DNA of 64,000 nt from Allolobophora icterica (lineage: Eukaryota > Annelida > Clitellata > Crassiclitellata > Lumbricidae): assembly GCA_963556255.1 (NCBI GenBank), contig OY744605.1:69584693-69648692 (forward strand), written 5' to 3'. This document shows, in pieces, positions 1 to 13,997 of this stretch (position 1 is the first letter of the stretch; the number at the start of each line of letters is the position of its first letter). A program made the position numbers and the translations under genes. The notes under the pieces are model-generated. The model did no database searches and had not been told where the DNA came from. It saw only the letters and a program-made list of their open reading frames with translations.

Positions 1-192
1 TATGATGTCTGCATAAGCCTTTGTCGCGGCGTCTGTTTCCATCGTGGGCGTTCCCACGTTTGTCAGCCGAAAACCTCCAGCCGACAGAATTCCCATCATG
101 GTATCACCCGCTTTGTGGACGAGCCCAGCGGCGCTTATCTGCCCCCCTCCCACCCCACCTCCACCGTCTCTTCCAAATTTATCAACCGGCAT
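1..192 (-). CDS. Fibre/spike-like virion protein, N-terminal 64 residues (cut by window edge)
   Basis: The minus strand is open from an ATG at 190-192 to the window edge (64 codons). A glycine-rich stretch (residues about 9-17) is followed by a segment containing KAGDTMMG, then LTNVGTPT and DAATKAYAD. The order G-D-x-M-x-G, then nlGtPt, then DAaTKaYaD is the signature found at the N-termini of phage tail-fibre and other trimeric fibre proteins, where it starts a beta-structured stalk. The gene follows the protease gene on the same strand with 27 bp between them. A TATATAAAA stretch sits directly before the ATG. I infer a receptor-binding spike or fibre; the distal part is not visible. Confidence 0.6.
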   Translation of the reverse strand, partial: MPVDKFGRDGGGGVGGGQISAAGLVHKAGDTMMGILSAGGFRLTNVGTPTMETDAATKAYADII

Positions 193-219
193 TTTTATAT
201 ACAAAAAGGTGACGGAAGT

Positions 220-1164
220 CTAACATAGGTCAAGAATGAAAGCTTCAAAATTCTTTCCAGCAGTGAGCTCTCTTAGCACGGTCAGGCAGAGATGACCACA
301 GACCACATCATCGGGACCCTGCAGCTGGAACGTCTGTGTTCTTATGGAACGGTTTAAATATCGAGAGATTTCGGTAGGCGGATCCAGCCCATAACTGTCA
401 AAATAGACTGCTGTAGGTCCATCTATCCAATAGGCGACCCAGTGAGTACCATCGCCGGAACCGGAATCTAAATTAACAACTCCACACTCCTTCTCACGAG
501 CCACGGCGGGCAGACCATCTCGCATGAAAACACCGCGGAAATGCGGCAGCGCTCCGGCAACTTTCTCTATATCGAAGTTGCTCAGCGGTTTTAGTTTTTT
601 TTGTCCGATGTACAGGCCGGATCCTTTACACATTGAACAGCAACCACCATAAGTCTGGCGCCCGAGATATAAACCGGTCCCGCGGACCTGAGCTTCGAGT
701 TCGCGATTGTGACGCGCGGCCTCTGCTAAAGCCGCGTCGTCGATCCGTTTTTTCTCGGCTTGGGCCGCATCGCTGGCCTGTTTCTTGCGCAGAGCCTCTG
801 CATCGCTGGCCTGTTTGTTGTGCACGGCCTTTGCCACCTCGGCGGCCCCTCCAGCCGCGGCACCCACCGCGGTTAACCCGCCAAAAATCAGCGGGAGGAG
901 AGCCAGTAGTGGAAGAAATCCGCCCGATTTTGTCATCTTTTTCAGTTGCGTTTTGGTGAATCTCAGCTCCATGCCAACGCCTTCCGAAATCTTCCTCACG
1001 ATTCGGGCGGCTTGAACTTTTGTCAGCGCGAGCTTATCGTCTCCACGAAGCTGGCCATGAGCGAGTCGGATCGTGGCACCAGTGCCGGCTCGCGCAGCTC
1101 TAGCTAATGTTTGCTTTTGCCCGTCGGTCAGTGAAAGGCCGAACGCAACGTATTCAGTTTTCAT
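220..1164 (-). CDS. Adenain-like cysteine protease fused to a hydrophobic virion-protein domain
   Basis: 314 aa. The C-terminal ~100 residues form an adenovirus-protease-type domain: His241 (in GTHWVAYW), Asp256 (YFDSYG), Gln282 (LQGP) and Cys289 (VVCGHLC) give the expected H-D-Q-C order. Such proteases cleave virion precursors during capsid maturation. The N-terminal half is different: a TKTQLKK motif, then a glycine/alanine-rich hydrophobic segment (about residues 80-112, beginning GGFLPLL), an Ala/Lys-rich coiled-coil-like stretch and two GLYLG/GLYIG motifs. This resembles small membrane-active virion proteins of Polintons and adenoviruses, and may be released by self-cleavage (inference). 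Start is ATG at 1162-1164, with an AT-rich element just upstream. It lies between the capsid gene and the fibre-like gene. Confidence 0.88.
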   Translation of the reverse strand: MKTEYVAFGLSLTDGQKQTLARAARAGTGATIRLAHGQLRGDDKLALTKVQAARIVRKISEGVGMELRFTKTQLKKMTKSGGFLPLLALLPLIFGGLTAVGAAAGGAAEVAKAVHNKQASDAEALRKKQASDAAQAEKKRIDDAALAEAARHNRELEAQVRGTGLYLGRQTYGGCCSMCKGSGLYIGQKKLKPLSNFDIEKVAGALPHFRGVFMRDGLPAVAREKECGVVNLDSGSGDGTHWVAYWIDGPTAVYFDSYGLDPPTEISRYLNRSIRTQTFQLQGPDDVVCGHLCLTVLRELTAGKNFEAFILDLC

Positions 1165-1221
1165 TTTTGGAAAAAATATATCTAAAAGAGGGCCTTGTAT
1201 CTAAATGTGAAAAACCGATTT

Positions 1222-2517
1222 CTAGTAGACGACGTTGAATTTGCTGCCATCCGATTCAAAATTCAGGAGTCGGTCACTGATCAAGACGGCATATGCTGTC
1301 GTATTATTTGGTACCCCTTCGTTAAAGTCCACCTTGATTTGTATGTCCTGTACAGAGGTTTTAAGTCGTTCAGATTGCCTCCGCACGTCCAGAACGAAGA
1401 TCGGAAACAAATCTACAAATTCGATTGGTGTCGGTTGGCATGACGATTCACGCGCGTCTATGCCGCAATATTCTTCCTTGAAGTCACGTAGGGCCTTGTA
1501 AGCGCGAGAGGTTGTCCTCTTGGTGAAGTCGAGATTCATGTCAACAACCGGGTAGCGATCGCTGTTGAGCATAGCGAAAATGTTGCGAACCTGCACATGG
1601 TCAAACAGTGCCGGATTCTGGCCTTGATGTGCATTCTTTCCAGTCTGAAAAGCAACAAGAATCCAGCGTGGCTTTTCCGTGCCCGACTTAACGCTCAAAC
1701 GCCAGGAAAAAGTCGTCGCTCGTGGCACCGCAATGTTGTCGCATTGCATGGCGCGGAATGCTACAGGTACCTTAACCTTGGCTTCAATCTGCTTCATAAG
1801 CATGCTTTTATACTCCAAAGCGGGTATTATATGCGGCATGAACCAGGAGAGTTTAGTCAGCGCGATCTGGCCATTGGTCGCAGCGGCTTCCTTGAAGATC
1901 GCGTCTGCATCCCCCTGCCGGCTCAGCAGTAAGGAGTGTTTAATCCCGTAAACGACCTTGTGATAATCATCGCAAAAACCGAATAGATGTCTTAAGGGAA
2001 CGATGAATGAAAACGTTCCAATAGGGACGGGTTTTCCAATGATCATCAGTCGACGGGCCTCGAAGCCGATATTCGCAGCCGCCGCTGCCGCTGTCGTGTC
2101 CTTTTGCCAACACATGTTTAAACCTTCGCCTTTGGAAAAATCATCGCCGTAAACCAGCATGCCTTTCATCGTCGTGGCTTGCCCAGGAGACATGACATTC
2201 TCTATCTCGGTGTTGTTAGCCAAGTATCGAATCTGAGAAAACATGTACGGGATGGCGTTGTTGACGAATGACACCAGCGAGTCTGCGATGTAAGCCGCGC
2301 CAGTTGATGTAAGCCTGCCCTCCACAAGAAGGTAGCTCTTGGAAGGCTGTGTGAAAATGTCTTGGTTCTGGATGTCTATCTGTATGGCCTGGCCATTGTT
2401 GATAGCCGCAGGGTTTTGTGATTCATACTCGCGGTATTCAAACGATTCGATGCTATTGTCATCGGGCACCGCCGAAGCGATGTCCAACATTTCACTCGGC
2501 ACGTCAAATGCTGCCAT
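1222..2517 (-). CDS. Major capsid protein (double jelly-roll, hexon-like)
   Basis: 431 aa. Length, position next to the penton and pVI/pX-like genes, and content fit the Polinton/adintovirus major capsid protein, which forms the pseudo-hexagonal trimers of the shell. The N-terminus has an acidic region followed by beta-rich sequence; mid-protein has the motif LRHLFGFCDDYHKV; the C-terminus contains IEFVDLFPIFVLDV and VDFNEGVPNNTTAYAVLISD, a style typical of these capsid proteins. I identify it by overall resemblance and context, not by a single catalytic motif. The start ATG (2515-2517) is preceded by an AT-rich tract. No breaks are seen. Confidence 0.82.
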   Translation of the reverse strand: MAAFDVPSEMLDIASAVPDDNSIESFEYREYESQNPAAINNGQAIQIDIQNQDIFTQPSKSYLLVEGRLTSTGAAYIADSLVSFVNNAIPYMFSQIRYLANNTEIENVMSPGQATTMKGMLVYGDDFSKGEGLNMCWQKDTTAAAAAANIGFEARRLMIIGKPVPIGTFSFIVPLRHLFGFCDDYHKVVYGIKHSLLLSRQGDADAIFKEAAATNGQIALTKLSWFMPHIIPALEYKSMLMKQIEAKVKVPVAFRAMQCDNIAVPRATTFSWRLSVKSGTEKPRWILVAFQTGKNAHQGQNPALFDHVQVRNIFAMLNSDRYPVVDMNLDFTKRTTSRAYKALRDFKEEYCGIDARESSCQPTPIEFVDLFPIFVLDVRRQSERLKTSVQDIQIKVDFNEGVPNNTTAYAVLISDRLLNFESDGSKFNVVY

Positions 2518-2627
2518 TATTATAGTTAAAAAAGTTCAAGCTTCAATTATTAATCATGTTGCAAATTAATTTCATATGTGGTGGGTTAAACTTTTTTTCC
2601 GTTTTGTGAATTAGTCGGAAATTTTTT

Positions 2628-3134
2628 TCATTTTGCAAGAAACAGACCCCGCGCATGAATCCGCGAACGCGAATGAAATTCATTTGCGTTTGCGTTTGCG
2701 CCGCCACGACTCGGCTTTATAGTTTTGAAACCGGATCCAGCAATGCGGCTGTTTATGTCGGCCATTGTCGGAACAACGGGTGGTGGACTCACAGCCAGTT
2801 GTTTTAAGTATTCGATGCTCTTGTCGCTGAGCGCCTTCTCCAAAGGTGCGGGGACAACGGGCGCGGCAGCTGAATTTTCATTTCGTAAATGAGCTTCATT
2901 TACGGCTGCAGCGCGTCTCGCTTTCACGGCATCAACAATTTGCCTGACGGCAGATGCTGTTGTGGCGCCGGCTTTCGCGACATTACCAACCGCCTTGGCA
3001 ACGTTTGTGATTGTGCCTCTATTCGCCGAAATGAAGGAGCCTGCACGGCCAAGGAAACCCGCGATTTTGGGTATCCAGTCGAAAAGTCCACCACCCACGA
3101 CACGACGCCGCTTTTTAATTCCAAGAACCAACAT
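2628..3134 (-). CDS. pVI/pX-like small virion protein
   Basis: 168 aa from ATG 3132-3134. An upstream in-frame ATG at 3164 would overlap the penton stop codon, so I prefer the downstream start. The N-terminus is basic (KKRRR) and followed by GGGLFDWIPKIAGFLGRAG, a short amphipathic stretch like those in membrane-active or DNA-condensing adenoviral minor proteins. An Ala-rich helical region (about residues 40-80) and a Pro-rich linker follow. The C-terminus contains GGANANANEFHSRSR, encoded by one of the palindromic repeats found elsewhere in the element (2672-2700); a second palindrome (2884-2904) lies mid-gene. Function in capsid interior or membrane escape is inferred. Confidence 0.65.
   Translation of the reverse strand: MLVLGIKKRRRVVGGGLFDWIPKIAGFLGRAGSFISANRGTITNVAKAVGNVAKAGATTASAVRQIVDAVKARRAAAVNEAHLRNENSAAAPVVPAPLEKALSDKSIEYLKQLAVSPPPVVPTMADINSRIAGSGFKTIKPSRGGANANANEFHSRSRIHARGLFLAK
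2672..2700. repeat. Small palindromic repeat, copy A (inside the pVI/pX-like gene)
   Basis: AATGAA-A-TTCATT palindrome (2672-2684) followed by a repeated TTTGCG run. The same palindrome plus (GCGTTT)n occurs at 10313-10346 and, altered, at 6518-6547. Here it is translated as ANANANEFH in the minus-strand frame. Confidence 0.7.
2884..2904. repeat. Small palindromic repeat, copy D
   Basis: CGTAAATGA, 3-nt spacer, TCATTTACG: a perfect 9-bp inverted repeat sharing the AAATGA/TCATTT core with the other copies. It lies inside the pVI/pX-like frame and lacks the GCGTTT extension. Confidence 0.55.
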
Positions 3135-3156
3135 TAGAATATTTAAGTGTGAACAT

Positions 3157-3948
3157 TTACGCACTGCGGATGTGAAACCTTATAGTTACTGTCTCACCGC
3201 GGAGGTTTAATTGTTCACCATTCTGGTCGGTCAGCCACACACGAATGCCCTGTACGTTACCAGCCGGTGCAACTGGTAGGTACACCAGATTTTTCGGAGA
3301 CTCGATTACCTTGTAGCCGGGCGACACATCCGGGAAAAAACTATAGATTACTGGCAGCTGGCTACCATTTCGATACGATCCAGAGATAATGTCACAATTT
3401 ACCAGGATTGTGTCCACGCGGAGAATATCGACTGGATTTTCTCCCTCTTTATAACCACTACCAAGCCTCTGAGGGTTAAAACCGAGCATTTGCCTGATGG
3501 TAGATTGAGCCATATTTACCTTATATAGGGCATTCGTAATTTTTATGAAGGCGCGTAGGGTAGATGCGTTAGCTCCTATGGTAATAGGAGAATTAAAGCC
3601 GAGTGGTGCCACACCCGTCGGAGAATTTTGCTTTTCTAACTGCCTACCGATTTCATCATTAATCTGTGCGATCTCGTAGCTTCCGTCGGGCAAAATGATC
3701 GTCTTCCACGTCACACCATTGTCGGTGCTGTAGACGAACTTGTTATTTGTACTATCGATGTTGGGAATCGAATTATAAGTTTCAAGATTGACCAAAGCAA
3801 GCTCAAAACGTCTTTTTGGATCCAGGTACAGCGGTGGTGAGAAAGCCGTGGTCCACCCTGTAGTATCTGAGGAAACAACTATACTAAAATTTTCCTTAGG
3901 CTGTAAAAGTTCTCTAATTTCTTCGAGCAGTTTCTCCGAGCGTTCCAT
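3157..3948 (-). CDS. Penton-like minor capsid protein
   Basis: 263 aa. Contains RRFELALVNLETYNSIPNI followed by NNKFVYSTDNG near residues 45-75, then alternating beta-strand-like segments and a hydrophilic C-terminus ending in VTIRFHIRSA. This organisation and size fit the single-jelly-roll minor capsid protein of Polintons and adintoviruses, which makes the pentameric vertices. It sits between the pVI/pX-like gene and the 373-aa gene on the same strand. Start ATG is at 3946-3948, with an ATAAAATAAA stretch about 15 bp upstream. Its stop lies 22 bp from the preferred pVI/pX-like start. Identification is by resemblance and context. Confidence 0.8.
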   Translation of the reverse strand: MERSEKLLEEIRELLQPKENFSIVVSSDTTGWTTAFSPPLYLDPKRRFELALVNLETYNSIPNIDSTNNKFVYSTDNGVTWKTIILPDGSYEIAQINDEIGRQLEKQNSPTGVAPLGFNSPITIGANASTLRAFIKITNALYKVNMAQSTIRQMLGFNPQRLGSGYKEGENPVDILRVDTILVNCDIISGSYRNGSQLPVIYSFFPDVSPGYKVIESPKNLVYLPVAPAGNVQGIRVWLTDQNGEQLNLRGETVTIRFHIRSA

Positions 3949-3958
3949 CTTGTGTGCT

Positions 3959-5080
3959 TTATTTTATGAGCATGTTTCTATTCAATTCGAGTGCCAGCTC
4001 TTTGGAGATCGCACCGGAACGCAGTAACTCGTCGAGAATGGCGGAGATTTCGTTGCCGAGACCAGTGTTTCCCGCGGCCCTAGAGGCCACCAAAAGCTGC
4101 AACCTCTCTACCAGAGCGTTTGGGTCGTTGTAGAACTGCACCGCGCCGCCTCGAATCAGCTGGAACTTTTTACTTTTCCGGCCATGAATAGGCAGACCAG
4201 ACATCTGTACGAGTTTTTTAAAAGTTTCAATTGCTTGAGGCGAGTATTGCTTAGTCTTAACGAAGCGTTTCGTTAACAGGCTGAACAACGACTCATCGGC
4301 CGGAGATTCGAGAACGAGGTTACCACCTTTAAACACTCTCAGTCTACCGGCAGGCAACGCGACGGGGTCAACGGAGAGCTCACCCAAGGCGTTACCTTGT
4401 AATTTCAGAGGAACGGCTGGAACACTGAAACCCTTTCCTTTTTTAGTGAGGGCGTGGCCTTTCAATAGCAAACGAATTCGATCTCTGTAGTCCTGTAGGA
4501 CGCCGATATCTACGGCCAGCGCATGTACCTTTTCTTCGTCTCCGTTCTTATTGGCCTTCCTTTTCTCTTTGCCCAGGGTGTGGCGATTATAATAATTTAC
4601 GCCTTCGATTATCTGTTTCACAGCTGCCGTGTCGTTCAGGTCGAGCTCGCTCGGAGGGGTAAAACCGTGCCGCCTTATTGTATCGACGTTGAGATGTCTG
4701 TTTGGGTGGACGAGCAATGCTTCCGCTGGAGCAGATGCTCCTGCGGCGGGGTGTGCCGCAATCGCCGGAATAGCCGTTGGAGCAGTTGCTCCAACGGAAT
4801 CACCGAACAACGCCGCTATCGGGTTAAAATTAGCAGACTCTGAAATCTGCGCCGGCAAATCCTGTAAAGCGCTGGTAACTTTCTGCAGCTCCTTGGACGT
4901 AGCCGCCTGGGATTCAGCCGTGGCTGTGGATATTGGTTTGAAAAGCTTTGCCGCATCGTACTGAAGGTTGGCTTCACCGAGCTTCTCATCCACGAAACGC
5001 TGTCTCAATCGATTTCTGCGAGCTAAATAATCCTGAGTCAAGGCGTCTCGCTCCTGTTTAGACGAAACTTTTGTCCACAT
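3959..5080 (-). CDS. Probable virion core/structural protein of the Polinton (function unproven)
   Basis: 373 aa, not assigned to an enzyme family. Residues 1-60 are charged and helical; 60-130 are Ala/Pro-rich and low complexity; the middle contains HGFTPPSELDLN and a basic stretch; the C-terminus has FQLIRGGAVQFYNDPNALV and then GNEISAILDELLRSGAIS. That C-terminal style recurs in uncharacterised proteins encoded by invertebrate Polinton-like elements. The position within the capsid gene run, 10 bp from the penton start, suggests a core or internal capsid protein. The start codon and promoter region are partly duplicated upstream (5122-5157). Confidence 0.6.
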   Translation of the reverse strand: MWTKVSSKQERDALTQDYLARRNRLRQRFVDEKLGEANLQYDAAKLFKPISTATAESQAATSKELQKVTSALQDLPAQISESANFNPIAALFGDSVGATAPTAIPAIAAHPAAGASAPAEALLVHPNRHLNVDTIRRHGFTPPSELDLNDTAAVKQIIEGVNYYNRHTLGKEKRKANKNGDEEKVHALAVDIGVLQDYRDRIRLLLKGHALTKKGKGFSVPAVPLKLQGNALGELSVDPVALPAGRLRVFKGGNLVLESPADESLFSLLTKRFVKTKQYSPQAIETFKKLVQMSGLPIHGRKSKKFQLIRGGAVQFYNDPNALVERLQLLVASRAAGNTGLGNEISAILDELLRSGAISKELALELNRNMLIK

Positions 5081-5157
5081 CGTGGTTGTATGTCGACTAT
5101 ATCTTGACGGTAACGATTACCTTTGTCCACATCGCGTTGTATGTCGACTATATGTTG
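5071..5157. repeat. Direct duplication of the start codon and promoter region of the 373-aa gene
   Basis: The block at 5071-5102 is repeated with small changes at 5122-5157. Both contain TTGTCCACATCG and TGTATGTCGACTATAT. On the minus strand the upstream copy again has ATG TGG ACA AAG, but that frame closes within about a dozen codons. The duplication doubles the ATAGTCGACATACAA segment before the gene. Confidence 0.7.
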
Positions 5158-5171
5158 TCTATATCGTGTCT

Positions 5172-5858
5172 TTAAATACTTGCCTTGGGCTTATAGAAGC
5201 GATCGAACCCGCAACGATATTTTCCGTCGTACACTTTGGACGTCAAATCTATGACTGCGAATCCATATGGCTGAGCAGCACACTCGCTGAAAAATGAACG
5301 GAACTCATCGAAAGACATGTCGCCGCCCACGAACGTATCGTGAATGGCTCGCAAATTTTTGCTGTCTTGGTTGAAGAGGACGATAAGATTAGCATTGTCA
5401 CGGATCGCTTGCTTGGGAATGCGGAAGTAATTTTGAGTTAAGTAGAAGCAGTCCGCGCCACCGTGTCGACCCATAGTGAAATACCTTTCGATGGGCGACT
5501 GTTTTTCAAGCATGACGTCATCGAAAACTAGAAGACTTCTGGCATTCTTATTTAATGATTCAACTGGAACTATTTCATCTGAGCAAGAGTGAAAGGAAGC
5601 CACTTCCTTCCCGGCAACTTTTTCGAGTTCTGTTATCCAGTCCCGAAGAAACTGATATTTTTCCTGTCCCAGAGACTTTGAGTAGAGGTATAGCCGGTCA
5701 AAACGTAGATACCCCTTTTTCAGAAGGAGGTTGAGCAGTAAGTTTGTTTTTCCACATCCGCTAGGCCCACAGATTATACACCGTATGCTGGATGGCAACA
5801 ACCAATGGTGGTGTTTTTTCCCATCGTCGGCTTCGAGATCGAAATTTGTTATTTCCAT
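5172..5858 (-). CDS. Packaging ATPase (FtsK/HerA-type, A32-like)
   Basis: 228 aa from the ATG at 5856-5858; a longer frame to 6005 exists but would run into the divergent PLA2 gene. Walker A is CGPSGCGKT (residues 30-38) and Walker B is LLVFDD (109-114), followed by a LTQNYFRIPKQ sensor-like segment (about 140-150). This is the layout of the ATPases that pump genome DNA into capsids of Polintons, adenovirus-like elements and large DNA viruses. It closes the minus-strand morphogenesis block and shares a 38-bp divergent region with the PLA2 gene. Confidence 0.9.
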   Translation of the reverse strand: MEITNFDLEADDGKKHHHWLLPSSIRCIICGPSGCGKTNLLLNLLLKKGYLRFDRLYLYSKSLGQEKYQFLRDWITELEKVAGKEVASFHSCSDEIVPVESLNKNARSLLVFDDVMLEKQSPIERYFTMGRHGGADCFYLTQNYFRIPKQAIRDNANLIVLFNQDSKNLRAIHDTFVGGDMSFDEFRSFFSECAAQPYGFAVIDLTSKVYDGKYRCGFDRFYKPKASI

Positions 5859-5896
5859 ATAGAGACAACGAGTTATGATTGTATTCAACGAAAACA
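5859..5896. promoter_or_regulatory. Divergent promoter region between ATPase and PLA2 genes
   Basis: Only 38 bp separate the two opposed start codons, so both promoters must overlap here or lie inside the genes. It is AT-rich but has no clear TATA box. Confidence 0.45.
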
Positions 5897-6499
5897 ATGT
5901 ATTGCCTACGATGTAAGAAACATACTGAGACTTCAAATGAAACAATCGTCGAGTTACGAAACGGTCGGCCAGCCAAGAAGGGAACCTGTGCCGTCTGCGG
6001 TGCAAAGAAGAGCCAGATTTTGCCTTCGAAAGAGCGAAAGCATAAGTCTCGTGAGCGCGAGACTCATGAGCATAAGTCTCACGAGACTTATGGAGGCTCG
6101 CTACTGAATAGGGCCCTCAACGCTCTACCTCTACCAGAAATGCATATGAGCCTTCCATCCGGTATGTCTTCGGAAGATAATCCGGGAGGTTCTTTTCAGA
6201 ACACGGGAAAGTACTCTTACTGTGGACCATTCACAAAACTCGACAAACGGCTGTCACAGCGATATCACGGTGTTAATCAGCTCGACCGTGCGTGCCTCCA
6301 CCACGATGTGGCTTACGCAGTTCATAAAGATACTCCGGGGCGTAACCACGCAGATGACATCCTCGCTGCAGCCGCGTCGAAGATCGCACTCACCGATGAA
6401 ACTCCGGATTATGAGAAGAAGGATGCGCGGCTGGTATCGGCCATTATGTCAGCGAAGTCGAGGCTAGGGATGGGTGTCAGAACAAAGGGCCATAAATGA
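5897..6499 (+). CDS. Zinc-ribbon plus parvovirus-type phospholipase A2 protein
   Basis: 200 aa from the ATG at 5897. Residues 1-42 form a small zinc ribbon (C3, C6, C31, C34) with ETIVELRNGRPAKKGTC, the pattern of the DUF5679 family. Residues 43-66 are a Lys/Arg/Glu/His linker encoded by hairpins (6041-6092). Residues about 107-160 carry a secreted-PLA2 core: Ca-loop-like YCGP (108-111), then D130-xx-C133-xx-H136-D137-xx-Y140, and a second acidic pair at 153-154. The same signature occurs in the VP1 unique region of parvoviruses, where the lipase helps virions leave endosomes. A similar entry role is inferred here. The stop codon lies within a palindrome (6491-6511). Confidence 0.85.
   Translation: MYCLRCKKHTETSNETIVELRNGRPAKKGTCAVCGAKKSQILPSKERKHKSRERETHEHKSHETYGGSLLNRALNALPLPEMHMSLPSGMSSEDNPGGSFQNTGKYSYCGPFTKLDKRLSQRYHGVNQLDRACLHHDVAYAVHKDTPGRNHADDILAAAASKIALTDETPDYEKKDARLVSAIMSAKSRLGMGVRTKGHK
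6041..6092. repeat. Nested hairpins inside the PLA2 gene linker
   Basis: CATAAGTCTCGTGAG (6041-6055) is the exact reverse complement of 6078-6092. Two smaller perfect hairpins sit inside: AGTCTCG/CGAGACT (6045-6051 and 6058-6064) and CATAAGTCTC/GAGACTTATG (6071-6080 and 6083-6092, 2-nt loop). They are translated as the charged His/Lys/Arg/Glu linker. Confidence 0.8.
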
Positions 6500-6547
6500 G
6501 TTTCATTTATGAAAACGCAAATGAAAATCATTTGTGTATGTGTTTAC
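6491..6547. repeat. Small palindromic repeat, copies C1 and C2 (between PLA2 and integrase)
   Basis: CATAAATGA/TCATTTATG (6491-6499 and 6503-6511) and CAAATGA/TCATTTG (6518-6524 and 6528-6534), followed by a GTGTATGTGTTTAC tail that resembles the (GCGTTT)n tail of copies A and B. The PLA2 stop codon lies in the first arm. Confidence 0.65.
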
Positions 6548-6574
6548 CTGTTTGTAATATATAGTTTTACTGAA

Positions 6575-7588
6575 ATGTCTAAGCACCTTTCAGCCGTCTA
6601 TTACAGCCCTAGAGGTTACTGGCGAGGTAAGGCTGCGGTGAAGAAACTAGCCTCAGCCGCCAAAGTTTCCGAGGCGGAGGCTCGTGATTGGTTGAAGAAA
6701 CAAGCTGTGTGGCAGATTTATCTACCCGTTCCTCGCCCCATACCGCATCCAAAGTTCGAGGAAAATCGACCAAACGCGGTACACCAAGCCGATCTCTTGT
6801 TTTTACCTCACGATAAAGTAGGTCGCAAGACTTATAAATACGCTCTCACTGTTGTTGATGTTGCCTCACGATACAAAGAAGCTGAACCGTTGATCAACAA
6901 AAGTGCGACCGAAGTCGCCGCCGCTTTAAGCCGGATCTATAAGAGGGGCCCATTAACTTGGCCTCGACTCTTTCAGGTCGATCCTGGACGCGAATTTATG
7001 GGTGATTTTACACCGTTGCTGACGAAGCACGACGTTCTTGTAAGACGCGGACAGGCCGCAAATCATCGTCAACAGGGCATCGTTGAACGCTTTAACCGTA
7101 CTCTAGCTGAGCGACTTTTCGGTGCCCAGTACGCTCAGGAATTGCTCCTGGCTGCAAGGGGGTCATCCGAACGGTCGGTGGAATGGGTTCGCCGGTTGCC
7201 CGAAGTTGTGGCTGCACTAAACGATGAGCCGACGCGCTTGCTCGACATGAAGCCGGTTGAAGCGATGAAAGCTGCTAAAGTGACACAGAAGCCCTCTCAT
7301 TCACAAACTAAAGGTCGTTTATGGGGCTTGGATGAGCCTGTTCTCGGGCACGACGTTCTCGTCCGATATTTATACGCTCCAGGCGAGCTCGAAGGTGGAA
7401 GCAAACGTGCCACCGATCCTAACTGGTCGCTCACCATCCACGCTATTTTGGATGTTGTTCGGCGGGCTGGCCAACCGGCTTTATACCATCTAGTTGATGG
7501 GCCTGGCCGCGGGTTTGTACGTGAAGAGCTACTTCTGGTTCCTATGGGCACTGAGTTACCCCCCGATAGAATACTCAACCGTCGTTGA
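6575..7588 (+). CDS. Retrovirus-type DDE integrase (rve) of the Polinton
   Basis: 337 aa from the ATG at 6575. An earlier in-frame ATG (6509) would add 22 residues read through the palindromic repeat, and a TAATATATAG element lies between the two. The catalytic triad is D73 (QADLLFL), D136 (FQVDPGREF) and E171 (GIVERFNRTL), with 34 residues between the last two. The N-terminus has YYSPRGYWRGK and LKKQAVWQIYLP, typical of Polinton integrases. The C-terminal ~80 residues include HDVLVRYLY and YHLVDGPGRGFVREELL, an SH3- or chromo-like beta barrel. The protein would insert the linear element into host DNA. Its last 14 bp overlap the convergent polymerase gene. Confidence 0.94.
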   Translation: MSKHLSAVYYSPRGYWRGKAAVKKLASAAKVSEAEARDWLKKQAVWQIYLPVPRPIPHPKFEENRPNAVHQADLLFLPHDKVGRKTYKYALTVVDVASRYKEAEPLINKSATEVAAALSRIYKRGPLTWPRLFQVDPGREFMGDFTPLLTKHDVLVRRGQAANHRQQGIVERFNRTLAERLFGAQYAQELLLAARGSSERSVEWVRRLPEVVAALNDEPTRLLDMKPVEAMKAAKVTQKPSHSQTKGRLWGLDEPVLGHDVLVRYLYAPGELEGGSKRATDPNWSLTIHAILDVVRRAGQPALYHLVDGPGRGFVREELLLVPMGTELPPDRILNRR

Positions 7589-10500
7589 TTTTGTAGTGCC
7601 CGTATGCCAGCGTTCTTATTCCGTCCGGAGATATCCACTTTTTTTTGTCTAATGGAGAGAGGCTGATCTTATTCTGCTCGTATACTCCGATTTGGTGGTC
7701 GTGGCTTCGAATCACGACTTGCGTGTGTCGCATCTCTTCTCGTTCGAACAGGCATTCCTTGTATAGCTCGTGGTGCAGATCCTTCTTCACAACTGCTCTC
7801 TGAACGCCTTTTGCTTTCCTGATCTCTGAACCACCCGATTTTAAGATCGAGTACATCTTCGGGCGTAATCCTACGAATTCCGCGATGGCGACTCCGTTAC
7901 ATTCATCCTTGAACTTGCCCACGACTTTCTTGTTCTCGACGTCGTAGTATGGGCTGTCTTTTGGAAACTCACTAAAGTCGTATAAGTGTTTTTTATTCCA
8001 CATATCGGCGTAAGCGTTCGGAGTTTCCACCTGAAATAAGAGGCTATCTGTGTCTGTATATAGCAACTGGGCTTTTTCTCCGTACTCGTTTTTCACATCG
8101 TTGTACCAGAAGTCGTACATGAGGTGCTTGCTGAGGTCGAGGACAGCCTGACCAACATATACAGGTCTGTTTAACTTGAGCTTGCTCTTCAAACTGTGAA
8201 TCGCGGCGAGTTGGTCGTTGAAGATTTTGTGTGATATGTAGGCCGGGTCAGCAATTAGTTTACGAAGTTTGTCAACTTTTGAGGTCGGTACCAGGTTAAC
8301 TCTGATTCTTTTTCTAAGATTTTCCATGGTCTTTCCAAAGACCGCATTATTAGCCAGTTTGAAGAAATCCTTCTCAAACTCCGACGTTGCCTTCGCTCTC
8401 AATTTCGTATTCATCTCGATGTATGGAGCCATCCATGCCTCCTGCCTGAATTTAATGGCACGATGGATCTTAGAAACTCGTAGGCCCAACGAGTGATATA
8501 GTTTGAGATTTCTATAATGGACCACATACCGCTCCTTAGGTCGTAGGCTTGGTACTAACTTCACATGCTTTGTGAACTTGCCTCCCAACTCGTTCATAAG
8601 CACATTCTGATAGTCACTCAACCACTCCTCTTCGACGGTCAGGGTCTCCGGTGCTAAGGGATAGTCGCTATGTGCATCGTGAAGGTGCTCCGGGTACCCG
8701 AGATCTACTTCAAGTAGGAAGCCTTCAGGCGCGTCGTCTGGAGTTTCCAACACTTCATCGAGAGTTGGACTTTCCCAGCTAAATCCTCCAACTGGTAGTG
8801 ACTGTTGCATCGCCCAGCCGTACAGGTTATTAGCATCGAGATACATGATCCAGTTTTCTGGCTTCGTGGTATCATGATCTGGACATAGTGGGTTGTTGGC
8901 CTTTGCGAATCTCTTGGATACCATCGAAATTCCGCCTCTGAGGCCTTTCTCTACAAACAAATGCATGTCTATATCAGTTAAAAGTTCGAGTTCGATCTTC
9001 GTCTTTTTCAACAAAGCGTCCCAAGCCATTCCTGGTAGGCTAAAGTAGTTAGCCGGGTCCAGACTGTAGTGCTTCATCGATGTGGATCTGAAGGTCTCGA
9101 ATACATCGGCTAGTAGGAGTACATCCGTACGGAGATACAAGTCATGATAGTCGCCCAGAGTTTTACAATCGAATTCATTCCATACTCGTTGGGCGTGTTC
9201 ATAATCCGCATCAGAAATGTTCTCTCGGGAGAGCCTGCTGTAGAACGCTTCTTTGGGTGGAAGTCGATCTTCTTCGAAGCGGTGGTAATCATGGATGTAT
9301 TCGTAACAATAAACGCCCTTTCGCCTCAACAGATCTAATTTTAACCGTTCGTTATGAACGAAATTTTCCTTTATATACGCCGTTGTGACTTTGAGATCCT
9401 CTAGCGACAGATTTCCTGATAGTTTATCTAACGAGCTGTTTAGAAACTGGAGACTATCGATGAACTGCAGTTGTCCTATGTTGAATGTCATGTATTTCTC
9501 CATATTGTTTGGGATGCAGTTAATATCAGTTTCCTCATCCTGTGCGGCCTCACAGCTGCCTATCGCTTGCATTATGAGGTGGCTGTCGTAACCTCGTAGA
9601 TTGTGGAAGACCACTGGTACCTTGCACTTATCTGGATATATTCGAAGCTTGAGGTTGCAGGCGTTATGAGCAGCACCTCGGTACTTACCAGTAATGTGAC
9701 AGTGGTCGCGAACTCTATCCTCTTCGAGCGCTTCTCCGCAGATATGACATTCGTTAGCCTCGCGGAATGATTGGCGATCGGCCGCTGACATAACCATCTT
9801 AGCTGGGGTGGCCAGCCTTTGCTTGATAGTGGCTAGCTCGCCTTGTAGTCGTTGCAGGAACTCTGGCACGGCGTTCTCTCCACGATATAGAACTGGTTTC
9901 TTGGTGCGGCCATCGCATCGAACTACAATATAACAAAAACTACATGGTTTCTGCTCAGCTATCTGTCTTGTATTGCTCTCGTTAGGGTTCATGGCCGCAT
10001 TGATGACTGGCACGTTCAACGCCTCGAAGTCTGCGTAAACGATATACGGAGTGCGCATCTGTTTGTGATGGTTCTGGAATTTGAGGATATTTTCATCCTC
10101 TTTTGGCATCTCAATTCTCTGAGGCTTCTCACTAATACCCTGACAATCTTTGACATGAGCATCCAGCAAGTCTTGTCTACAGAATACGTGTAGGCAGCGA
10201 CGACATGGGTGTTTCTTGCTTTTGTCTTTGCTATTTTGATTAAGAATTCGGCCAAGGTCTTTAATCCAGACGTAGTGGTGATTCTGTAAAGGAAAAGTCT
10301 GCAAATGAGCCTGCAAATGAATTTCATTTGCGTTTGCGTTTACGTCGCTGGCCAATAGCAGAAGGTCAATATTATGGCCTCTATCGATCTGCTTTGATAC
10401 ACAGATTGGATATAAAGCTTTATCCCACCCGAAGACTGAGACGCTTATAGTTGGGTTCTGACGTTCGAACTTACCGATATCTGTGACCTTCACTGGGAAT

Positions 10501-11321
10501 TCTATACCGTCAAAGTTTAGCTCCTGCAGGTGAGCCTGATACTTATAGGGGCGATTCGGATTTTGATCTGCTGGGTACATTGCGCTTAGTATGGCCCACT
10601 CGAAGCAGCGATTATCGTTGTTTTGCACGTTAATAACTGAGCGGGGTGGCACATACTTCGGTGTGGGAAAGTAGCTCTTACCTCGGAAAGGCTTATATCT
10701 TGCAAAACTGAGGTCTAGCGACACGACCCGCTTCACTCTCCACCCCGATCCCTCATTGGTATACTCCTCGAGGAGTTGTAGTACTTCGGCCTTGGCCTTC
10801 CGTATAGCCCCTTGGACTTTACCTGCATTGGTAATTGGTGCTGCTGTGCTTCGAAAGTAGGCGGTATTGGTAATGATGCCGGGGGGCGTGTTGCCACCAT
10901 ACACATTATCAACGGTCGGTGCCAACTTTTCCAAATCAACAGTCAACACTTGAGAGTATTTAAAACCGCCATTTTTCAAGAGCTCTTCGTTGAGTTGCGC
11001 CTCAATATTCTGCTCCATTGCACTCAAGAAAGCCAACGCATCTCCTTCCAGCCTGTGGTTAAGAGGTACTTCTGCACGGAAGTCTCTCAGATGCTGATTG
11101 GCGAGCTCTCTGTACACTAGAAAGGGTGGTGGTCCACCTCTATCCTTCTTAAGTAGGAGTGGGTCGAATTGTGCCAGAATGGCTTTACGTTTTAACCCTC
11201 TGCGCTTACGCACTGGAGGAATTGGCCTTGGAAGCAGTGGCTGTAGTAAGCGCCTTTTGACTGCATCAGGGATAGGTTCGTCTAACAATTGTTCAATTTT
11301 TTCATTCGTAGACAATGCCAT
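7575..11321 (-). CDS. Protein-primed family B DNA polymerase with extra N-terminal and zinc domains
   Basis: 1,248 aa from ATG 11319-11321; an upstream in-frame ATG at 11366 is less likely because a TATAAAAC-like element lies between them. Exonuclease motifs: YADFEAL (D431, E433), HNLRGYDSH (N574, D579) and YLRTDVLLLAD (Y729, D733). Polymerase motifs: A, YLDANNLYGWAM (D829); B, KLANNAVFGKT (988-998); C, YTDTDS (D1090, D1092). Additional parts: a possible papain-like segment with NRCFEWAILSA (C239) and HHYVWIKDL (348-356); a C2HC finger (C373, C376, H389, C393); and an endonuclease-VII/HNH-like zinc cluster (C525, C528, H540, H542, H552, C555) between exonuclease motifs I and II. It replicates the element by protein priming. 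A palindromic repeat encodes VNANANEIH near 327-335. Confidence 0.95.
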   Translation of the reverse strand: MALSTNEKIEQLLDEPIPDAVKRRLLQPLLPRPIPPVRKRRGLKRKAILAQFDPLLLKKDRGGPPPFLVYRELANQHLRDFRAEVPLNHRLEGDALAFLSAMEQNIEAQLNEELLKNGGFKYSQVLTVDLEKLAPTVDNVYGGNTPPGIITNTAYFRSTAAPITNAGKVQGAIRKAKAEVLQLLEEYTNEGSGWRVKRVVSLDLSFARYKPFRGKSYFPTPKYVPPRSVINVQNNDNRCFEWAILSAMYPADQNPNRPYKYQAHLQELNFDGIEFPVKVTDIGKFERQNPTISVSVFGWDKALYPICVSKQIDRGHNIDLLLLASDVNANANEIHLQAHLQTFPLQNHHYVWIKDLGRILNQNSKDKSKKHPCRRCLHVFCRQDLLDAHVKDCQGISEKPQRIEMPKEDENILKFQNHHKQMRTPYIVYADFEALNVPVINAAMNPNESNTRQIAEQKPCSFCYIVVRCDGRTKKPVLYRGENAVPEFLQRLQGELATIKQRLATPAKMVMSAADRQSFREANECHICGEALEEDRVRDHCHITGKYRGAAHNACNLKLRIYPDKCKVPVVFHNLRGYDSHLIMQAIGSCEAAQDEETDINCIPNNMEKYMTFNIGQLQFIDSLQFLNSSLDKLSGNLSLEDLKVTTAYIKENFVHNERLKLDLLRRKGVYCYEYIHDYHRFEEDRLPPKEAFYSRLSRENISDADYEHAQRVWNEFDCKTLGDYHDLYLRTDVLLLADVFETFRSTSMKHYSLDPANYFSLPGMAWDALLKKTKIELELLTDIDMHLFVEKGLRGGISMVSKRFAKANNPLCPDHDTTKPENWIMYLDANNLYGWAMQQSLPVGGFSWESPTLDEVLETPDDAPEGFLLEVDLGYPEHLHDAHSDYPLAPETLTVEEEWLSDYQNVLMNELGGKFTKHVKLVPSLRPKERYVVHYRNLKLYHSLGLRVSKIHRAIKFRQEAWMAPYIEMNTKLRAKATSEFEKDFFKLANNAVFGKTMENLRKRIRVNLVPTSKVDKLRKLIADPAYISHKIFNDQLAAIHSLKSKLKLNRPVYVGQAVLDLSKHLMYDFWYNDVKNEYGEKAQLLYTDTDSLLFQVETPNAYADMWNKKHLYDFSEFPKDSPYYDVENKKVVGKFKDECNGVAIAEFVGLRPKMYSILKSGGSEIRKAKGVQRAVVKKDLHHELYKECLFEREEMRHTQVVIRSHDHQIGVYEQNKISLSPLDKKKWISPDGIRTLAYGHYKINDG
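10313..10346. repeat. Small palindromic repeat, copy B (inside the polymerase gene)
   Basis: GCAAATGAA, 1 nt, TTCATTTGC: perfect 9-bp arms at 10313-10321 and 10323-10331, followed by GTTTGCGTTTACG. Nearly the same unit as copy A at 2672-2700. An additional GCAAATGA lies just upstream. Translated in frame as NANANE. Confidence 0.75.
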
Positions 11322-11372
11322 AATTATAAATTGTTTTATACTAATCCATGGTAATATCAGTCTCATCCATTG

Positions 11373-11684
11373 TCAATAGTATACCTCAGAAGTTATTACT
11401 ACTAATACTATAGTCGGAAGTTATTTATACTAATACATTTAAAAAATTTGTTAATTTTAATTATTTATTTATACCTGATATTAAATTATGGTCTGGCGTC
11501 TCCAACCGCAGATAATACTATATTCAATTATGGCCAGGCGTCTTCAACTGCAGACAATACTATAGTCAGAAGTTATTTATACCACTACTATAATCAGAAG
11601 TTATTTATACTAACATTTTAAAAAATTCGTGAATTTTAATTATTTATTTATTTTTATACCTGATATTCAATTACAGTCAGACGC
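11373..11684. repeat. Degenerate direct repeats upstream of the polymerase gene
   Basis: A block of about 100 bp (11400-11500) containing AGTTATTTATACTAA, a run of A and TTAATTTTAATTATTTATTT and then ACCTGATAT recurs at 11580-11684; shorter pieces with CTATAGTCAGAAGTTATT occur between. The right copy includes the 3' end of the small Cys-rich gene, so the left copies are partial duplicates of that gene end plus its trailer. Because the polymerase starts at 11321 on the minus strand, these repeats sit in its promoter region. Confidence 0.65.
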
Positions 11685-11926
11685 TTACATTCGTCTTGAA
11701 AGATGCTTTCATCTCGCAACTTTTTAAGTCTAGCAGCCTTGTAGCCACAACCCAGGCAAACACCTATTTTATTTTTCACCGCCTTTCCACAACCTATGCA
11801 CGGCTGCGTACCACCACCCTTTCTCAGTCTTAACAAGTGAAGTTTGCAATAAACTCCTAGGCAGCTATTACCACATATGTCTCTTGTCCCAATTACCAAC
11901 CACGCACACAGATTTCTGCCCTTCAT
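11654..11926 (-). CDS. Small Cys-rich zinc-binding protein of the Polinton
   Basis: 90 aa from ATG 11924-11926. Cys pairs are arranged as CGNSCLGVYCKLH, then CIGCGK and CLGCGY, a pattern able to hold two zinc ions; the C-terminus is helical and charged. A TATATAAT box lies about 15-22 bp before the ATG on the minus strand, the best promoter-like signal in the element. Small CxxC-rich proteins of this kind are common accessory genes in such elements. A DNA-binding or regulatory role is a guess. I do not recognise a named family. Confidence 0.6.
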   Translation of the reverse strand: MKGRNLCAWLVIGTRDICGNSCLGVYCKLHLLRLRKGGGTQPCIGCGKAVKNKIGVCLGCGYKAARLKKLRDESIFQDECKRLTVIEYQV

Positions 11927-12149
11927 TTTTGATAGATAATTATATATACCCAATATAAAACTTTATCTAATTGGTTTATCAAATAGTTAGTCAAAGCAAT
12001 AGATTAATATCCAAAGGGTTTAGGTTGGCAGTAAAAACGGCCTACAGCGGCTCAGCTGGCTAGCCTTTATTTTTAAAGCATATATTTTTCATTTATGGAT
12101 TGGCCAAAACGATGTCTCGATTTCGATTCTTCCTCTTCCCTTAAAACTG

Positions 12150-12360
12150 TCCGACTCATTGAAGCATTTGGATTTTTGATCCCCACCTATCGATTATGAT
12201 TTGACTGAGCGCTTGTGAATAGGCTGCACGACTTCGCCTTTTGTGCGCTATAGAAATCTCCAGAGTACTATTACACTGAACCGTATGACTGACTTGACTA
12301 AGCACCTGTGAATAAGCTGGGGGGTTTTTTGCGATCACTTTTGGTGCTATAGAAGTTCAA
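12150..12360 (+). repeat. Two SINE 3'-end copies in tandem
   Basis: Two copies of the tail unit that recurs at 27150, 28136, 30390, 37268 and 41222. Copy 1 has TGACTGAGCGCTTGTGAATAGGCTG and GTGCGCTATAGAAAT; copy 2 has AAGCACCTGTGAATAAGCTG and TTGGTGCTATAGAAGT. Both can fold into a terminal hairpin. Confidence 0.6.
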
Positions 12361-12522
12361 CAGAGCGGCTTGTCCAATGTATCCTTTATCTATAGAAAGC
12401 TGACAGCCATATAAAATTTACCATGGTGCTGTATAAATTCCCTCTAGTAAAGACCGGCTGTAAAAAAACAGTCTTGGTTTAAACGTAACACGTTTCTGAA
12501 AACAGCTTGCTACGAAACCACC

Positions 12523-12862
12523 TTCCAATGTAAATCTCAACTTTACTTTGGAATGTCAGAGGGAGACACGATACGTCAGGGTTATTTATAGATGTGACGT
12601 CATTGTATTATAATGATCTTTTCTGGGGCTGTTCAACGAGGCCGCATTCCAATGTAAATCTCAACTTTACTTTGGAATGTCAGAGGGAGACACGATACGT
12701 CAGGGTTATTTATAGATGTGACGTCATTGTATTATAATGATCTTTTCTGGGGCTGTTCAACGAGGCCGCATTCCAATGTAAATCTCAACTTTACTTTGGA
12801 ATGTCAGAGGGAGACACGAAACGCTAGGGTTATTTATAGATGTGACGTCATTGTACTATAAA
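12523..12862. repeat. 124-bp tandem repeat, about 2.7 copies, each with a CRE palindrome
   Basis: Units start at 12523, 12647 and 12771. Copies 1 and 2 are almost identical; copy 3 diverges after its TGACGTCA. Every unit has an imperfect hairpin (TTCCAATGTAAA against TTTACTTTGGAA) and the palindrome TGACGTCA (12595, 12719, 12843), the consensus for CREB/ATF factors, preceded by GGGTTATTTATAGATG. Confidence 0.85.
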
Positions 12863-13997
12863 TATTTTTCATGGTCTTTGTTTTCGTGAAGCCATATATT
12901 CGAGTCTGCCCAATAGTTAAACTTGAATGTCTGGGTCAAGACTCGCCCTAGTGCTAAATAAATTCTATTTTGTATTACTCAGTCTTAATTTAAAAAATTA
13001 ACACGTTTGAAACACAGGCTTGATGTGTCCAGAACCTGGAAAACCTGAAAAAACCAATAACACTGACTTAAACAAAGCAATACGCTTAATCAATGGTTGT
13101 AGGCTGTAGGCAGAGTTCGCAGAAGATGGTTATGCAAAACGTTAGGGTGGCCTAAAAAATATCTGCTGCTTCGGGAGAAAAATCAGTTTAACAAAGCCAA
13201 TAGGCTATATGAAAAATACGCAATATTTCTGGGCCACCCTATTCTGCGCAGAGCCGTAGGAAAACACAGCCTACAGCCCGAGGGCTGGCAGTCCGCACGC
13301 GTCGCCTGTAGACACGCCCTGTTTCCGGCTTCAGCTTGAATCAGCGGCCTTTGTTCCAGCTGGTGAACTTTGACCTGCTCAAGCAACAACAAAATTTATT
13401 CCTATCGGCGGTGATTTTAGCACCAAAAGCAAGCGATGATTGTAAAATAAGGAAAACAACATTGATTAACCAGTAAAAAAGACTATGTCGATACTAAAAG
13501 GCATTTACATTTTAAATATTTACACGGTTTCAATAAATCTATTCATTCGGTAAACATATAATTATAGGCCTAGGCATAAAGCGGATATAGAAAACAGAGC
13601 AGTCCCTTAAGCCAGCCTAAATATAGAGCGGTTTTTCCGCCAGAAACGCAAGCGCTGCTGTATAAATGAAACAACATTGGTTGCCTTGTAGAGACTATGT
13701 CATATATAATCCTAGTTTTAAAAACATTTAAATGGTTTCAATAAATCTACTCCAGAAACTGATTTTCATTCAGTAAAAATATAGGCCTAATCGGATAAAT
13801 AAGAACAGTCCCTTAAGGTAGTCATGAATATTAAATATTAGCGACTTAATTTTCTTAGCCTCCGTATATGATGGTGGATGGCCAGTCGTCTCCCTCACCG
13901 TCTCATCTTTCCACCAACAGTGCACAGCTGGTGTACTCATTATAGCCGAGTCGGCTAGGGCATGCAGATGAAGCAGAAATCTCGAACCCATTTTTTC
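12863..13997. other. AT-rich stretch without recognisable genes
   Basis: No coding frame, RNA gene or clear repeat family seen. Short direct repeats such as TTTCAATAAATCTA (near 13530 and 13740) hint at old repeat copies. Confidence 0.5.

Follow-up and report, generated by a model that had tools for sequence, protein, structure and literature searches.

In-frame coding palindromes have been described in Rickettsia, and also in Wolbachia and Methanocaldococcus jannaschii (PMC10969869 and PMC2996958, accessible portions), and template switching is said to create and maintain hairpins (PMC8794818, accessible portion). The locus considered here belongs to the annelid Allolobophora icterica. It lies in a window of 64,000 nt (the whole stretch of DNA analysed), of which positions 1 to about 11,340 (about 11.3 kb) are part of a Polinton whose left end, with its terminal repeat, is beyond the window edge. 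PolB (PF03175), rve integrase (PF00665), double jelly roll capsid (PF21738) and A32-type ATPase (PF04665) co-occur in this element, which is the gene set of Polintons/Mavericks. Five short palindromes, called copies A to E, are scattered through it. The reading preferred here, to which somewhat less than an even chance is given, is that the five are related DNA repeats that arose within the lineage of this Polinton through the copying of hairpin patches.

A preliminary description, made from the sequence alone, had listed five palindromes, and all of them were located with offsets of only a few bases. Its statement that NANANE is encoded twice in unrelated proteins holds for A (polymerase) and B (pVI-like), and its placement of the others at the PLA2/integrase junction (C and D) and mid-gene was likewise confirmed; the mid-gene copy is E, in the pVI-like gene. 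Of the tails ascribed to three copies, those of A and B are GCGTTTGCGTTT and that of C is degenerate. The common core AAATGANNNTCATTT (AAATGA-N3-TCATTT, with at most one mismatch) has five matches in 64 kb, every one within the Polinton part; 100 dinucleotide shuffles yielded 0.66 matches on average and at most 3, none of them reaching 5. A looser first pattern (4-base gap, up to two mismatches) was not enriched, with 12 matches observed versus 8.43 expected, because the true spacer is of 3 bases. The half-sites AAATGA and TCATTT are exact in four of the five copies, with one mismatch in B, and the 3-base spacer varies.

Copies A, B and C have about 36 nt in common on one strand, with 89% identity between A and B (32/36 bases) and 69% between B and C. 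When the 11,340 bases of the element were matched against themselves (sites at least 100 bp apart), A–B was the strongest pair with a score of 26.0, followed by B–C with 19.5; weaker matches were D–E (14.5) and that of A to a site that ends at 2578 (14.0), a possible degraded sixth copy. On this comparison, A, B and C are clearly related to one another. The next best self-match scores 13.5, so the scores of the D–E pair and the sixth site barely exceed background, and their weaker case rests on the common core more than on the score. Of their 21 positions, D and E differ at three, two of which make up a paired change. A profile built from A, B and C gave maxima of 8.3–16.6 across 20 simulated 64-kb sequences. 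The sixth site, with a profile score of 13.0, falls inside this range, and so does the best score in the remaining 52 kb (9.9, at 12–64 kb), where no comparable site was found.

The surroundings of the palindromes were compared at the protein level with 49 homologs of the polymerase, 29 of the pVI-like protein and 71 of the PLA2-like protein, an insertion run being defined as residues in alignment columns gapped in at least 80% of the spanning homologs. In the polymerase, 35 of 1263 residues fall in insertion columns, and the longest run, NANEIHLQAHLQTFPL (345–360), is the copy A segment. Most of this copy is included in a 60-nt stretch (10284..10343, minus strand; 20 codons, VNANANEIHLQAHLQTFPLQ), the middle of which is a lineage-specific insertion; its residues ANEIHL have a gap fraction of 0.92–0.96 among 48 spanning homologs. 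The anchors IDLLL and HYVWI, both present in 47 of the 49 homologs, are 26 residues apart here and 3–12 apart in 43 of these 47. The segment is predicted to lie between two beta strands, with a pLDDT of 54–55 versus a model mean of 75.9. In the pVI-like protein, the sole insertion run of at least 3 residues, GANANANEFHSRSRI (146–160), is at copy B, where NANANEFHSRSR has a gap fraction of 1.0 among 21 spanning homologs; a GKGLF-, GQGLF- or ARGLF-type tail, kept in 19 of the 29 homologs, follows after 3–9 residues in these and after 23 here. Homology plus insertion show a gain of hairpin DNA at A and B. The preliminary description had noted that retention of NANANE at both sites in relatives would speak against mobility; the peptide is absent from both in the relatives retrieved, and NANE is present in none of the 149 retrieved proteins. 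With these relatives devoid of NANANE, the palindromic DNA located in extra segments and 52 kb free of a comparable site, a dispersed or converting repeat is therefore supported over protein homology.

The 60-nt stretch at copy A also has the look of a short phase 0 spliceosomal intron (GT...TTTTCCTTTACAG), in which case NANANE would not be translated in the polymerase. Its GT..AG ends and pyrimidine tract delimit exactly 60 nt and bracket the extra polymerase segment. This explanation is nevertheless very improbable, for the reading frame stays open through A and no such ends were seen by eye beside copy B on the coding strand.

Why the same peptide appears twice may follow from stop codons. 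Each copy, on each strand, has one frame stopped by (A/G)AA-TGA, and a TAA in the outer arm shuts a second frame on both strands of D and E and on the minus strand of A and C. One frame is open in 6 of the 10 copy-strands and two are open in the other 4. The frame reading N-(E/D)-x-H is open in all 10 and is the one in which the coding strands of A, B and E are read; on these strands A and E have a single open frame of three and B has two. Copy D is read in a closed frame, and its TGA ends the PLA2-like gene. Such an open-frame filter explains most of the shared peptide without any peptide function. A function of NANANE as the cause of the sharing is unneeded, because the DNA match reaches non-coding C and the other frames often contain stops.

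Hairpins of unrelated sequence occur in the PLA2-like gene and in gene 3959-5080. The sole insertion run of the PLA2-like protein, SKERKHKSRERETHEH (44–59), overlaps the nested hairpins at 6041–6092, which differ in sequence from A–E; most of the 63 spanning homologs have residues aligned with HETY, the end of the run (counts taken from the alignment; the homolog pattern matched just 44 of 71). The longest run of the polymerase and the sole runs (at least 3 residues) of the pVI-like and PLA2-like proteins are thus on, or overlap, hairpin DNA. Over the coding sequences of nine genes, four perfect hairpins have arms of at least 9 (A, E, one in the PLA2-like gene and one in gene 3959-5080), versus a mean of 0.37 under synonymous-codon shuffling, in which 0 of 200 shuffles reach 4. 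The corresponding values are 5 observed versus 1.54 expected (4/200 shuffles) for arms of at least 8, and 2 versus 0.12 (1/200 shuffles) for arms of at least 10. Hairpins with arms of at least 9 number 5 in the 11.34 kb of the element and 9 in the outer 52 kb, the latter falling to 8, or about 1.5 per 10 kb, once simple repeats are set aside. That hypervariable linkers grew independently by local repeat or hairpin mutation, the likeness of the copies being partly a convergence of short repeats, would accord with these unrelated hairpins and with the near-background scores of D–E and of the sixth site; the match of A and B at 32 of 36 bases, with a score of 26.0 against a background of 13.5, makes it improbable.

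DNA folding z-scores are −4.06 for C with D, −4.60 for E, −3.94 for the PLA2-like hairpins and −6.0 for those of gene 3959-5080 (0/200 shuffles), the strongest among the six tested. When folding was compared with codon shuffles over 1130 scanning windows, the top rank went to an ordinary part of gene 220-1164, the PLA2-like and 3959-5080 hairpins came second and third, and copy B was eleventh among the 14 listed. Selection on RNA structure as sole cause is rejected in view of this ranking and of the absence of A and E from the 14.

If hairpin patches were copied inside the element, as preferred here, the hairpin would fold in single-stranded stages of replication or repair, and template switching or templated end-joining would put a patch of tens of bases elsewhere in the same element. 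Copies would survive where the protein is tolerant (loop between beta strands, tail linker) or in an intergenic gap; within genes they would also need an open reading frame, hence NANANE, and the same switching would hold both arms complementary. A local duplication next to A (TCATTTGCAGGC/TCATTTGCAGAC) and the nested repeats at 6041–6092 look like traces of repeated template switches. The paired change that separates D from E could reflect arm correction by switching or, just as well, a constrained hairpin.

Several points weigh against this reading. Copying is deduced from a single element, the self-matches singled out no donor copy, and no copying boundary was recognised. Copy C is merely 69% identical to B. 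An insertion in the polymerase loop is not special, because 4 of the 47 homologs with both anchors (P0020, P0027, P0029 and P0039) carry 23–35 unrelated residues between them. Copy E is no clean insertion: VNEAH has a gap fraction of 0.03 among 29 homologs, and the Ala-rich linker that holds VNEAHLR is 23 residues long, within the 8–26 of homologs (25/29 parsed properly), so that E either replaced an earlier segment or evolved in place. Folding z-scores are modest for A (−1.89) and B (−1.19), and A and E do not figure among the 14 scanning windows listed. The stop filter, lastly, is incomplete for the frame of B, as two of its coding-strand frames are open.

Homologous same-strand copies, read in one frame within insertions of two unrelated genes, would also be produced by a tiny non-autonomous palindrome of the Rickettsia kind, moved as a fixed unit by a transposase or integrase and surviving in frame. 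GTAAAC, which opens the long arms of both A and C (minus strand), might then be the end of the unit, but B lacks this end. Neither a target-site duplication beside A or B nor any fixed length was seen by eye, the 52-kb flank has no comparable site, and GCAAATGAAWTTCATTTGCG has no exact match in viral contigs. Movement as a fixed unit is thus regarded as unlikely. The same degree of doubt attaches to a broader picture, in which a mobile palindrome of about 40 bp parasitises the Polinton, enters replication and virion genes in a tolerated frame and adds loops to their products, as a eukaryotic-virus counterpart of the Rickettsia palindromic elements. The preliminary description had favoured a mobile or converting repeat over protein homology; a dispersed or converting DNA repeat is supported, and mobility as such is not demonstrated, as neither target-site duplications nor sharp boundaries could be made out. 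The tail alone (CATTTGCGTTTGCGTTT) occurs 41 times at 40 loci in viral contigs, none of them carrying the palindrome. Probing viral contigs with the polymerase, the polymerase alignment, the PLA2-like alignment and the capsid found no relative, nor did probing genome contigs with the PLA2-like alignment.

Half-sites that are exact in four of five copies despite a variable spacer would suit a dimer-binding or hairpin signal for replication, transcription or packaging, present at several sites and with the protein insertions as its cost. From B, C, D and the weak sixth site, the capsid or integrase start is no more than about 190 bp downstream, and B, C and A (2669, 6517 and 10313) are almost evenly spaced (3848 and 3796 bp), possibly by chance. 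On the other side, A and E are deep in genes, no Rfam family matched in 1–13000, and the peptide is missing from the retrieved relatives at both NANANE sites, which shows a lack of conservation for these two positions at least. A signal of this sort is judged as unlikely as movement of a fixed unit.

The features are collected in Table 1. None of the nine reading frames used has internal stops. Just past the coding part of the element, perhaps near its right end, three tandem repeats of 124 bp occupy 12512–12883. Some PLA2-like relatives, such as P0081, run past the stop of D into a GGKGLILGPNSPF tail; the GGKGLILGPNSPF motif is also found at the end of the pVI-like homolog P0074, and GKGLLLGPNSPF in P0068.

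Table 1. Palindromes, other hairpins and genes of the Polinton, in window coordinates
Feature	Position	Strand	Remarks
Copy A	10313..10348	-	Inside the polymerase gene; VNANANEIHL, read from coding strand GCGACGTAAACGCAAACGCAAATGAAATTCATTTGC
Copy B	2662..2704	-	3' end of pVI/pX-like gene; read ANANANEFHSRSR
Copy C	6513..6552	-	Non-coding, between PLA2-like and integrase genes; directly beside D
Copy D	6491..6511	.	CATAAATGAGTTTCATTTATG; adjoins C; contains PLA2-like stop codon
Copy E	2884..2904	.	CGTAAATGAGCTTCATTTACG; within pVI-like gene, read VNEAHL
Possible degraded sixth copy, not secure	2561..2596	-	Upstream of capsid gene
Nested hairpins, unrelated sequence	6041..6092	+	CATAAGTCTC...GAGACTTATG, in PLA2-like gene; 15-bp perfect outer arms
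Related hairpin pair GGAGCA..TGCTCC, about 50 nt apart	4728..4797	-	Ala-rich stretch of gene 3959-5080
Gene 220-1164	220..1164		No Pfam match; presumably protease-like, by gene order
Double jelly roll capsid gene	1222..2517	-	PF21738
pVI/pX-like gene	2628..3137	-	Label from first reading; no Pfam match; start codon uncertain
Gene 3157-3948	3157..3948		DUF5901 match, under its cut-off
Gene 3959-5080	3959..5080		No family named
A32-type ATPase gene			PF04665
PLA2-like gene	5897..6499	+	PF08398 and PF18930
rve integrase gene	6575..7588	+	PF00665
Family B DNA polymerase gene	7575..11321	-	PF03175

If copying of hairpin patches is the right explanation, a virus-like transposon can make its own proteins longer through the copying of short hairpins in its DNA, and new loops would owe their origin to the mechanics of DNA plus a stop-codon filter, not to selection on the peptide. 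The locus would then offer a concrete, testable example of palindromes in the coding sequence of a eukaryotic virus-like element, and could mark template switching in the replication of that element.

With Polintons/Mavericks and adintoviruses the element has in common the double jelly roll capsid, rve integrase, PolB, A32-type ATPase and PLA2-like genes. Among the matches listed, as judged by titles and abstract openings, none described in-frame palindromes scattered through elements of this group, and the string 'palindrom' has 0 occurrences in the accessible portion of PMC11071296. The comparisons that follow are with known systems as described in the accessible portions of the sources. Introners are short elements copied into many genes (PMC9860276), and copy A has GT..AG ends, whereas copy B is without intron ends. 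Polymerase theta makes short copied or templated inserts by end-joining (PMC4912351, PMC5068794) in cellular break repair, whereas at the present locus both a break and a polymerase acting on it would be hypothetical. Template-switch mutations between inverted repeats make and keep hairpins, can change coding sequence and would explain paired changes (PMC8794818, PMC8604942); the cases described are of switching between the arms of an inverted repeat, and here related hairpins are 3.8–7.6 kb apart. PARCELs, found in bacteria and eukaryotic microbes, are also dyad-symmetric coding sequences thought to move between genes, but they consist of a 25-residue motif in tandem arrays, not of single short palindromes. 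Rickettsia-type elements likewise put palindromic DNA in frame in unrelated genes, typically in non-structured segments, and add peptide. Copies A and B do the same, with 32 of 36 bases common to two unrelated genes, in frame and absent from the relatives; E is in frame without being a clean insertion. Elements of this type are described in prokaryotes, those of Rickettsia being of about 150 bp and with 44 integrations in one genome, whereas the common part here is about 36 nt, in five copies of about 20–43 bp within one animal virus-like element. Since in-frame coding palindromes (Rickettsia, Wolbachia, an archaeon) and PARCELs precede it, the kind is already known; what is new here is the setting, a Polinton, and the very small size.

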